Shown here: one piece after another, positions 8,970 to 47,901 of the stretch
Layout of the letters: each line of letters begins with the position of its first letter
How positions within the stretch are numbered: the first letter of the stretch is position 1
From: Ferroacidibacillus organovorans
GTDB taxonomy: Bacteria > Bacillota > Bacilli > Alicyclobacillales > SLC66
Assembly: GCF_001642725.1 (NCBI RefSeq)
Contig: NZ_LSUQ01000014.1
Location: forward strand, 1 to 54,354
Direction of reading: 5' to 3'
Length of the DNA: 54,354 nt
Made by a program: the position numbers and the translations under genes
Notes under the pieces: generated by a model
What the model saw: the letters and a program-made list of their open reading frames with translations, nothing else
What the model was told of the DNA's origin: nothing
Database searches by the model: none

Positions 8970-8987
8970 AGTGCTCACCCTCTCCAC

Positions 8988-9017
8988 AAAAAAATGCTCA
9001 CCTGCGGGCAGGTGAGC
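8988..9017 (-). terminator. Rho-independent attenuator in the pyr leader
   Basis: On the minus strand a perfect 10-bp stem (GCTCACCTGC / GCAGGTGAGC, 2-nt loop) is followed by A and seven T, ending about 20 nt before the pyrR start. It sits downstream of the PyrR-binding loop, as in known PyrR attenuators. A smaller inverted repeat (9022-9037, CGGCATG/CATGCCG) between the two could take part in antitermination. Confidence 0.9.
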
Positions 9018-9057
9018 ACATCGGCATGAGCATGCCGAATTCATTCGCTTCCTTACC

Positions 9058-9071
9058 AGCCTCACAGGACT
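9058..9071 (-). promoter_or_regulatory. PyrR-binding loop (anti-antiterminator)
   Basis: The minus strand reads AGTCCTGTGAGGCT, which fits the PyrR-loop consensus ARUCCNGNGAGGYU at every position. It lies about 25 nt into the predicted leader and 41 nt before the terminator stem. PyrR-UMP binding here should stabilise the anti-antiterminator and let the attenuator form. Confidence 0.92.
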
Positions 9072-9099
9072 GATTTAAAGGACTATTCAATTCCATCTC

Positions 9100-44872: not shown

Positions 44873-45148
44873 TCACGCGTGCTTGCAATTCTCATGAACA
44901 ATCCAAATCGCCTTTGTCAACTCGCGAATCAAATCGACACGCGCCTGATCAAACTGCATACCTGCCTTTGAATACGCCTGTCCATCTGGTCGCGAACTGT
45001 AGTGTGGCGTCAAATGGTTGAGCGCAATCGCCAACATGTCCGTTTTACAAATATCACACGCACACACGTCGTCCATGCGTGTCAGCATGTCATCAAGCGT
45101 AAAGCGCGCAACTTCTTCTACAACATTGACAAGCAACTCATCCACCAC
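44873..45148 (-). CDS. comFB: Late competence development protein ComFB family
   Basis: This 91-residue protein has a Cys cluster C29, C31 and C34 (DVCACDICKTDMLAIALNHLTPHY) followed by a helical C-terminus (RVDLIRELTKAIWIVHENC). The CxC-xx-C-x-x-D motif with ALNxLxPxY is diagnostic of ComFB. In B. subtilis the gene is in the comF operon and its role is unclear; a related family binds c-di-nucleotides in cyanobacteria. Here it stands alone, not beside comFA/comFC. GTG start at 45148; the next codon is also GTG. Confidence 0.82.
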   Translation of the reverse strand: MVDELLVNVVEEVARFTLDDMLTRMDDVCACDICKTDMLAIALNHLTPHYSSRPDGQAYSKAGMQFDQARVDLIRELTKAIWIVHENCKHA

Positions 45149-45268
45149 ACTTTCCGATCATCAACACCTTGTTTCACCCTATCACACAAGTTTAGCCGAT
45201 TCAATCCTCGCTTTGGACATACTGTAAGTAAAATCGACTGCGCAAAGGTTTGAAGGAGGAACCCATTT

Positions 45269-46624
45269 GTGACACAAACGTGTAACCAACGCATGCGCGT
45301 GAAAATGAGCGGACTCGGAGATCCTGACGCACGCGCGCAGATCGAAGCGCTGCTCAGCATGGTCGAAGGCATTTTATCTGCCAAGGGAAACCCACACACA
45401 GGCAGAATGCTTATCCAATACGACGATCGATTTTTGCGCGCCTGGCAAATCAGCGCACTTTGTGGTCGGCTGGATCGCTCTAACAAAGACATCCGTCGCG
45501 CCGCAACCTATGTGATGTCGGCGCAAAAAGTCGCCGTTGCACTGCCCCTTCTGACGATCGCGGGAACCCTTTTGCGCAGGGTCATCTTTGGCCGAAGCAA
45601 TGCGGCAGACAGTCTGATCGCATTCGAACTCTCCACCGCCGTCTCTGTGGCGAGCGGATACACGCCCGTGCGCAGGCGCATCCATCTACTCGGACAGCGT
45701 CTTCATGTCAGCGACGACGCACTGCTCACTGCGGCGGCGCTCTTTGTCGCAGCACTGCGCGAATCTTACATCGTTCTTGCGGCGCTCTTTTTACTTAACT
45801 TTAGCGGCTATGTTCGCCGCCACCATACACTCTCTGCCGCCGCCAAAGCGGGTGAGGCAATTGTACGCATCGACCAAGAGAACGTCGAGCCGCTCGCTTT
45901 GACTGCAATCTCTGACCGATTGTCAAAAACCGCGCTTTTCTCCGCGCTCACCTACGCTGTCGTCACGCGTCACCCACTGCGCGCGCAAGGGTTATTAATC
46001 GCTCTTAACCCGCGCATTCTACTTTTGTGTTCGCGCTATCTCTTCAATATCGCTGAGCGCGTAACCCATGAAAACTGCCTGATGATTCCAATGTATACAG
46101 GGATGGATCTCTATGAGATGACGCAGGCAAAGACGATTGTCTGCGCGTGGAATTCTGAGGATGATCTCGCCGCCTATGCGCGGCTATGCCATTTTGCAGA
46201 CACGCGAAACCTACGGGTTTCCTGCAACGCAACCATTTCTCGCGTCAAATTGCTTGAAACGGTGACACGCGATGCGACAATCCATACGATCGTTCTACTG
46301 AAAAAAGAGGATGAACCACTGGAAATGCATCAGCGCCACGGAACTCATCTCTTTTTACAAGGTACGCCAGATCAATTCATCGAGACATACATCCTCGCTG
46401 AGCACACCGCAACGCGCATCACGTGGATTACTTGGATGGGACCACTCTTAAACGGGGTCCAACTTGCCCAGTTCTTCTTCGGAGTGCCCCTGACACGCCT
46501 GAATCGGACAAACGACTATGCAACCTTCTTTTTGCTCGCCGCGTGTGACCACGCGATGAAAGCAGTCCAGCCCCCACCGCATTTCGGAAAGAAGGAGCAT
46601 CGAAGTGATGAACTTAGACTTTGA
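45269..46624 (+). CDS. Degenerate P-type-ATPase-like membrane protein with HMA-like N-terminus
   Basis: This 451-residue protein opens with a ferredoxin-like HMA-type domain (about 8-55: RMRVKMSGLGDPDARAQIE then ILSAKGNPHTGRMLIQYD) that lacks the CxxC metal site. Paired hydrophobic segments follow at roughly 84-130, 148-182 and 222-258, in the spacing of P1B ATPases. Where CPC should be, the sequence is LNPRILL (246-252). Where DKTGTLT should be, it is VCAWNSEDD (291-299), and no GDGxND is visible. The protein is about 300 residues shorter than active pumps. Catalysis is therefore unlikely; a scaffold or sensor role is a guess. GTG start at 45269 after AAGGAGGAACCC; CATACTGTA 47 bp upstream resembles a sporulation -10. 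Confidence 0.6.
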   Translation: MTQTCNQRMRVKMSGLGDPDARAQIEALLSMVEGILSAKGNPHTGRMLIQYDDRFLRAWQISALCGRLDRSNKDIRRAATYVMSAQKVAVALPLLTIAGTLLRRVIFGRSNAADSLIAFELSTAVSVASGYTPVRRRIHLLGQRLHVSDDALLTAAALFVAALRESYIVLAALFLLNFSGYVRRHHTLSAAAKAGEAIVRIDQENVEPLALTAISDRLSKTALFSALTYAVVTRHPLRAQGLLIALNPRILLLCSRYLFNIAERVTHENCLMIPMYTGMDLYEMTQAKTIVCAWNSEDDLAAYARLCHFADTRNLRVSCNATISRVKLLETVTRDATIHTIVLLKKEDEPLEMHQRHGTHLFLQGTPDQFIETYILAEHTATRITWITWMGPLLNGVQLAQFFFGVPLTRLNRTNDYATFFLLAACDHAMKAVQPPPHFGKKEHRSDELRL

Positions 46625-46786: not shown

Positions 46787-47452
46787 TCAGTGCTGAGGTT
46801 CATTACCTTGGAGCAAATTGCGATACTGCGGCATGAGCGATGCTCCCACGTCACGCACATCCTCTTGAAACGCTTTTAATTGATCCTGATTGCGCAGCGC
46901 AAAATCACTCGGCACCCCGCCGCTCGCGCGCGGAGGTTCCTGATAAGCGCTCTGTGGCGGATTCTCCTGACTCGTCAGGGTGGACGCTTCCGGTTTTTGC
47001 TCAGCAACCGTATACGAATCCGCAACCGCCTGGCTCGACCATTCATTCGCGGCGCGCTGCGTCTTGTCATCCACAACTGGCATGCCGATCGCTCCCGTTT
47101 CAACGTCTACTTCTCGCTGATTAAGGACGGAGCGCACGCCGCGCGCAACCGAATCAGCCGCGTCAATCGTCGTCGCCACACCGTGTACAACCTTATCTCG
47201 CAGCCACGACCGCGGATCAATTGTTTCGTGTCGCATCGTTTCTCGCTCTGTCGACGCGTCTTCAAAAATTCGACGCGTTTCCGTCGTGACGCGTTGCCCC
47301 GCTGTGCGAACCGTGTCGCCAATGCGCATCGCGCCTACCACCGCGCTTACGGTTGCTGTTCGCAGTGCCCGACGTACAGGCGGAAGCGCGACGAGCGTCG
47401 CCACGCCAAGCGCAATCCAAGCCGTTGACGAACCCGAAAAAGGACGTCTCAT
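46787..47452 (-). CDS. Single-span membrane protein of unknown function, 221 residues
   Basis: I do not recognise a family with confidence. The N-terminus has one hydrophobic segment (TAWIALGVATLVALPPVRRAL, within residues 10-31) and then a small-residue helix, loosely like YtxH or DUF5132 proteins. A charged helical region (50-110) and a low-complexity middle rich in Gln, Ser, Pro and Glu (120-190) follow, then a final helix (QDQLKAFQEDVRDVGASLM). ATG 47452 has GGGGGAG six bases upstream. It is divergent from an 89-residue membrane protein and convergent with the ATPase-like gene. Confidence 0.6.
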   Translation of the reverse strand: MRRPFSGSSTAWIALGVATLVALPPVRRALRTATVSAVVGAMRIGDTVRTAGQRVTTETRRIFEDASTERETMRHETIDPRSWLRDKVVHGVATTIDAADSVARGVRSVLNQREVDVETGAIGMPVVDDKTQRAANEWSSQAVADSYTVAEQKPEASTLTSQENPPQSAYQEPPRASGGVPSDFALRNQDQLKAFQEDVRDVGASLMPQYRNLLQGNEPQH

Positions 47453-47631: not shown

Positions 47632-47901
47632 GTGAATCAACGGGTATCGACAGAAGGCATCCTCTTAGGCGCTGGAATTGCACTCTTTGCGACCGCCGTG
47701 CTGCCAACGCTTCGCGCGCACAGAGGCGACGTCTTTCAAGCCATCGGGCACACCTTCAGGCGCGCCACACGCATTCCAAGGCGACTGACCGCGACAGTGC
47801 GTGAAGATCTTGAAGATCTTCTTTTTGACATCCAGATGGAGCGCATGAAGCGATCTCTCGACCGCGAATTACAGGTCCATCCGCACGGAAACGCCCATTA
47901 A
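47632..47901 (+). CDS. Small single-span membrane protein, 89 residues
   Basis: GTG 47632 follows GAAAGGACG. Residues 8-27 (EGILLGAGIALFATAVLPTL) form one hydrophobic segment, followed by a basic stretch with many Arg and an acidic helix (VREDLEDLLFDIQMERMKRSL). The layout resembles DUF5132-type accessory proteins found near HMA/P-type ATPase genes, but this is a loose resemblance. It ends 10 nt before the convergent carboxyltransferase gene. Confidence 0.6.
   Translation: MNQRVSTEGILLGAGIALFATAVLPTLRAHRGDVFQAIGHTFRRATRIPRRLTATVREDLEDLLFDIQMERMKRSLDRELQVHPHGNAH

Follow-up and report, generated by a model that had tools for sequence, protein, structure and literature searches.

The frame at positions 45269–46624 of the window, the 54,354-nucleotide stretch of contig NZ_LSUQ01000014.1 of the acid-mine type bacterium Ferroacidibacillus organovorans analyzed here, is real, and our analysis confirmed that its product is related to P1B metal pumps but devoid of any catalytic motif. 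The protein is homologous to the front half of giant double pumps, has been retained under selection and is associated with small one-helix proteins. We consider it, with a probability of roughly 55%, to be a pseudo-pump of P1B descent that does not transport but serves a metal-pump platform as a scaffold or regulatory subunit. Its origin as a free-standing dead P1B-like half is well supported. The positions of the gene, its parts and its neighbors are listed in Table 1.

Table 1. The dead P1B-like gene, its domains and residues, and flanking genes (window coordinates).
Feature	Coordinates	Strand	Remarks
Divergently oriented gene of the ComFB family	44873–45148	−	PF10719, 9.7e-16
Shine-Dalgarno-like AAGGAGG	45253–45259	+	9 bases upstream of the GTG of the dead gene
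Dead P1B-like protein	45269–46624	+	451 aa, GTG start
HMA_2-like ferredoxin-fold domain, residues 2–71, without CxxC	45272–45481	+	profile match below cut-off and predicted fold
Cys5	45281–45283	+	invariant in 13/13 host-family proteins
Helical membrane core, residues 76–268, A-domain absent	45494–46072	+	predicted structure and alignment
Predicted core helices			residues 76–107, 116–145, 149–164, 167–194, 209–233, 236–268
N-P-R (247–249) at the CPx position	46007–46015	+	where the predicted M4 helix breaks
His267 and Cys270	46067–46078	+	each invariant in 13/13 host-family proteins
P-domain remnant, residues 278–364, no N-domain	46100–46360	+	fast-evolving
AWNSE (293–297) at the DKTGT position	46145–46159	+	not conserved; alignment
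Last helix pair, M5–M6 position, residues 367–431	46367–46561	+	predicted structure
small1, 221 aa, one predicted TM helix	46787–47452	−	family-specific neighbor; ATG at 47452
small2, 104 aa, one predicted TM helix	47587–47901	+	EExEDxxxEAQFERMKRxIDRE-like tail; alternative GTG at 47632

The frame is intact over all 451 codons, as the initial annotation had stated. A motif scan of the 451-aa sequence detected no CxxC, DKTGT, TGE or GDGxND, in agreement with the annotated absence of the HMA CxxC and of GDGxND. In an alignment of 107 sequences, including four CopA-type pumps, LNP (residues 246–248) aligns with CPC and AWNSE with the DKTGT region, the two replacements that had been named. LNPR thus stands in place of the CPx ion site, and the A-domain falls in an alignment gap. 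Profile searches, recommended in the same annotation, gave a divided answer: Pfam HMA_2 (PF19991) matched at E 0.0013 with 19.1 bits, below its cut-off of 30, and the Pfam and NCBIfam scans yielded no E1-E2 ATPase match, NCBIfam returning nothing. Six host-family dead genes match HMA_2 at E ≤ 0.001, none of them above cut-off. The loss of CxxC is not peculiar to the dead protein, as the HMA_2 domains inspected in active relatives also lack it and start with forms of LPGRxR.

The predicted structure of the dead protein (mean pLDDT 80, pTM 0.77) aligned best to P1B pumps. VIA-align placed HMA4 (8q74) at the top with a Z-score of 16.9 and an rmsd of 4.7 over 300 residues, with further matches to CopA (7r0g, 16.6), KdpB (7zrh, 14.8), CadA (7qbz, 14.7) and ZntA (4umv, 12.8); isolated HMA domains (3cjk and 6a71, Z 10.4, 66 residues) ranked after the pumps. 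A second model, of the Sulfoacidibacillus thermotolerans protein (35% identity), which was built from identical alignment rows in a different order, again matched HMA4 best (Z 15.2, 300 residues). Because the models align best to P1B pumps, P-type topology is predicted, and the layout of an HMA domain plus membrane helices originally read from the sequence stands in both predicted structures. Like CopA, ZntA and HMA4, the dead protein has an HMA domain followed by P1B-arranged helices (Z 11.5–16.9 over 250–300 residues); unlike them, it has no A-domain, N-domain, ion-site CPx or phosphorylation motif, and its P-domain is a stub.

A search of 61 relatives with the dead protein gave matches in 19 genomes. 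Within the family of the host organism (the host family), the protein is free-standing, with 370–516 aa in the frames read and one frame open upstream to 582 aa, and bshC flanks the gene at 13 of 13 loci. Outside the host family, the matches sit within long frames. A survey of the class, with categories counted by hand from the result rows, found matches in 41 of 398 genomes: eight of the host family, 26 with frames of 1400–1661 residues, two with split forms only, one with a contig-end fragment and four whose sole match is short and HMA-like; two further genomes of the survey have split and giant forms together. In a search of the phylum, 172 of 398 genomes matched, mostly through short N-terminal matches that we read as probable HMA domains of other pumps, longer context having been examined for 17 of these genomes. 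A peptide-pattern scan of genome contigs returned the host family alone, in ten named records including S. thermotolerans Y002 (Alicyclobacillaceae according to NCBI); since two strict patterns were used, it says little about absence outside the host family. Plasmid tblastn with the N-terminal half of the giant L048 gave no match, and a viral contig scan with pattern A2 gave 33 pattern matches and no relative.

The giant L048 (1532 aa) combines HMA_2, a region homologous to the dead protein, Cation_ATPase_N, E1-E2_ATPase, Hydrolase and Cation_ATPase_C. Its front half carries ANPRP at CPx and SDENL at DKTGT, and its back half scores best against Ca-type P2A models, below the cut-offs of these models. 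In the giants read over their whole length, the back half is an active pump of the Ca type (P2). Split forms were found in four genomes (G107, G121, G147 and G091), where dead proteins of 616–678 aa lie near active HMA_2 pumps of 1019–1082 aa that have DKTGT and GDGxND. The 616-aa split form matches P1B models (ZntA-type, 1.6e-10; TIGR01525, 1.3e-8), showing that the dead half is P1B-like; across the 616–633-aa forms the values are 1.6e-10 and 9.7e-6, all of these matches lying below cut-offs. The relatives also include active HMA_2 P1B pumps that stand alone, with about 690–785 aa, and six of the eight inspected have LHN near the C-terminus, a feature tied to P1B6 (PMC9374683). Two loci, L144 (1258–6168) and L140 (980–5695), encode double pumps that retain DKTGT in the front half, with CPC and SPS, respectively, at its CPx site; judged by these motifs, they are possibly two-engine pumps. 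At L143 (262–6116), the front and back halves of a double pump are encoded in separate frames of 1099 aa and 982 aa that overlap, reflecting either a frameshift or a natural split.

In a tree rooted on CopA-type pumps, the 13 host-family proteins form one clade (SH-aLRT 100) nested within a 40-row clade of dead halves (SH-aLRT 99) comprising 23 giants, four split forms and the 13 family members, with the active HMA_2 P1B pumps outside. This is a quick tree without bootstrap and with long-branch warnings, and it omits the fragments L098 and x_L092, L143, all x_L1xx rows and duplicates. The nesting implies that catalytic loss preceded the free-standing, reduced form and is thus older than the host family, which, together with the kinship to giant pumps and the small partner proteins, goes beyond the initial annotation.

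The motif columns were examined in the rows without DKTGT. NPR occupies the CPx position in 37 of 47 distinct rows, the others having NPQ, NPS, NPM, SPR, VPA, APV, DPR or APG. An Asp remains at the first DKTGT position in seven of these 47, all giants and none with the full motif, and in no host-family protein. Counting all 56 rows, 53 show a gap at the TGE position of the A-domain; the three in which the column is still occupied come from two loci (L142 and L143/L112). Within the host family, N-P-R is found in 12 of the 13 proteins and S-P-R in one, so that the replacement at the CPx position proved conserved and that at DKTGT did not: AWN is shared with the congener alone, and AWNSE was ruled out as a conserved functional motif. 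The NPR Arg might sit where the cation once bound and thereby lock the dead protein.

Selective retention, also put forward at the outset, was borne out. Compared with the congener G001, the dead gene has a dN of 0.073, a dS of 0.762 and an omega of 0.096, alongside 0.085 for bshC, 0.092 for rsmH, 0.139 for small1 and 0.019 for bipA. Omega in successive 75-codon blocks is 0.029, 0.027, 0.030, 0.057, 0.097 and 0.157, and purifying selection acts on the HMA domain and the helices. All 13 host-family matches are free of stops within the match; the progressive frameshifts expected of decaying homologues were thus not seen, and a pseudogene was rejected. The gene is intact in 13 of the 18 host-family genomes. 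In three of the others (G008, G009 and G017), the locus lies within a contig and lacks the dead gene, small1 and small2; comFB is missing at the same three loci, and the genes could thus have disappeared together in single deletions. The remaining two without the dead gene are G016, whose locus ends at a contig edge, and G014, which shows no bshC.

Two small proteins accompany the dead gene. The frame of small1 is open to 47707; it adjoins the dead gene at 13 of 13 host-family loci and was found in four of four dead-positive host-family genomes tested, and no small1 was found in the five dead-negative ones. Matches to small2 in a one-pass search are short frames beside dead halves outside the host family (L051, 6.2e-9; L141, 5.3e-8; L096, 1.5e-7; L095, 2.8e-7; L094, 3.7e-7; L048, 2.8e-6; L049, 8.8e-6; L097, 1e-5). 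Proteins of this type share a tail like REExEDxxAEAQFERMKRxIDRE. At the C-terminus, where PacL proteins carry a His metal-binding motif, the window small2 reads VHPHGNAH and that of the congener QPHGDAH, an ending not present in most others. A member of the small2 profile lies within 1.5 kb at 27 of 27 dead-module loci, a count that omits L098 (contig end), L143 (overlapping frames), and L140 and L144 (N-terminal half with DKTGT); because some of these loci contributed to the profile, only the one-pass matches are independent. Among 1653 control frames, the profile hit at E ≤ 1e-3 only the two window genes and frames beside host-family HMA_2-P2 pumps. Such frames stand beside seven of the eight host-family HMA_2-P2 pumps, plus the uncertain L163, and at none of 16 classical Ca-pump loci.

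Hydropathy and alignment indicate that small1 and small2 fit one TM helix with a charged, helical cytosolic part. PacL proteins likewise have one TM helix, carry Glu/Ala repeats and cluster P-type pumps (PMC9374683, PMC13043812), and small1 and small2 resemble these scaffolds in layout and genomic context. Pfam scans of 28 small proteins gave DUF5132 in six (best 2.4e-5), DUF1490 in one (0.017) and DUF6110 in one (0.034), all below cut-off, with no small1- or small2-type match to the PacL families DUF1490 and DUF6110 above cut-off. Two other neighbors recur. The ComFB-family gene is present at several, though not all, host-family loci. By eye, we also noted a short helical protein of the pattern (H)LxxAL...LW..FL beside giant, split and host-family HMA_2 pumps (L191 8977–9192, L048 13098–13325, L096 16698–17033, L094 16393–16644); the three scanned gave no clear Pfam family.

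A candidate partner is an HMA_2-P2 pump (E ≤ 1e-180) found in eight of the 18 host-family genomes, all eight of which carry the dead gene. In the P2 tree, likewise a quick tree with long-branch warnings, this pump forms its own clade, not allied with the back halves of the giants. The 942-aa L163 of G014 is a long branch among the host-family HMA_2 pumps and was left outside the count of eight. The pump of the present genome (1007 aa) lies on contig 1, another contig than the dead gene. There, at L189 (6472–12416), the HMA_2-P2 pump, a small2-like frame, Na_Ca_ex, VTT and TerC follow in a row, similar to the gene order in four other host-family genomes, and the Na/Ca exchanger, VTT protein and TerC around the pump suggest Ca or Mn as its substrate. 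As five of the 13 dead-positive genomes (G002, G003, G004, G010 and G013) have no clear HMA_2-P2 pump, there is no single fixed partner, and a fixed partnership with the contig 1 pump was rejected.

These observations support the earlier interpretation (P1B layout, lost motifs, selective retention). The suggested non-transporting role, as a sensor, as a scaffold or as the partner of a pump encoded elsewhere, is strengthened because in relatives the dead half is fused to, or lies beside, an active pump, and because small partner proteins are present. We envisage that a metal pump of the P1B type, carrying an HMA_2 domain, lost its catalytic motifs; in relatives the dead half is the inert front of a P1B-P2 double pump, and in the host family it stands alone, reduced to the HMA domain, membrane helices and P-domain stub. 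Such a pseudo-pump cannot run the P-type ATP cycle. Together with the two one-helix PacL-like proteins, it would gather or tune pumps of the Ca, Mn or heavy-metal type, with the contig 1 HMA_2-P2 pump as a candidate. The HMA domain of the pseudo-pump, along with Cys5, His267 and Cys270, may sense metal. A broader proposal, held tentatively and at slightly less than even odds, is a pseudo-pump class in which P1B pumps without catalysis were recruited to serve P2-type pumps as dedicated scaffolds or sensors, initially as the fused front half and later as separate proteins, and were kept with their own PacL-like assembly proteins.

The same residues allow for a sensor or metallochaperone that acts independently of pumps. 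Among all Cys and His residues, only Cys5, His267 and Cys270 are invariant in 13 of 13 host-family proteins (His354 occurs in 11); the remaining 52 rows of the tree, for which the five commonest letters were listed, show no conservation of the three. A metal or thiol site may therefore have been gained after separation from the pump, and the protein might signal or hand over metal alone or with small1. The presence of the dead gene in five genomes that have no clear HMA_2-P2 pump agrees with such independence, but small2-type proteins also stand beside active HMA_2 pumps, which points to a pump context, and we regard this alternative as rather unlikely. The old pump helices might instead serve as a passive ion pathway or a new ATP-free transporter, in keeping with the strongest constraint (omega 0.027–0.057) lying on residues 1–300, which comprise the HMA domain and six predicted helices. 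However, the Arg of N-P-R now stands at the former ion site, where it would repel cations, and the A-domain and the energizing parts are gone, making this reading very improbable.

Evolution is faster from residue 301 onward (omega 0.097–0.157), where the P-domain stub lies; the stub is absent in two host-family genomes (L046 and L047), and the gene has been lost from at least three. A decaying relic without function could account for these features, but intact frames in all 13 carriers despite 31–40% identity between genera, and an omega similar to that of bshC, largely refute it. It is equally hard to credit that a distant membrane protein resembles P-type pumps by helix packing alone. Foldseek gave no PDB match at E ≤ 0.001 for the model, its first row being ATP7B (7xuk) at 0.024 with GPCRs following at similar E, hydropathy flags just five of the predicted helices, and the E1-E2 ATPase profiles are silent. 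Against this explanation stand the continuous homology to the dead halves of the giants, the matches of the split forms to P1B models and the VIA-align results, in which all rows above Z 11, for both models, are P-type pumps.

We compared the pseudo-pump with known systems. CtpH/CtpI belong to FUPA24 (TC 3.A.3.24) and have a large N-terminal segment (PMC3573892). By its description, FUPA24 is alike, but these proteins are of double length with an active C-terminal half, whereas the dead protein has 451 aa and stands alone, and the passages on CtpH/CtpI do not present that segment as a catalytically inactive P1B pump. In a review (PMC10654040), CtpH/CtpI, like giant P-type ATPases whose N-terminal half lacks an explanation, remain uncharacterized. 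Our literature search found no description of this half as a dead pump, which is no proof of its absence in print. P1B6-like ATPases with PacL (DUF1490/DUF6110) in effluxosomes share with the present system an HMA domain, a P1B fold and a small one-helix neighbor; they differ in that the dead protein lacks CPx, DKTGT and TGE, and small1 and small2 fall below the DUF1490 and DUF6110 cut-offs. Ferrosome (Fez) loci likewise combine a P1B-6 pump with small membrane proteins.

If the front half of the giants is a dead P1B pump, the separate protein allows its function to be tested apart from an active pump. A pseudo-pump class, if true, would explain the purpose of the N-terminal half of giant bacterial P-type ATPases, and the clustering of pumps in effluxosomes (PMC13043812) would extend to a dead pump as a component. 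Elsewhere in the window, a PyrR binding-site RNA (Rfam RF00515, 59.8 bits) lies at 8987–9085 on the minus strand, upstream of pyrimidine genes.
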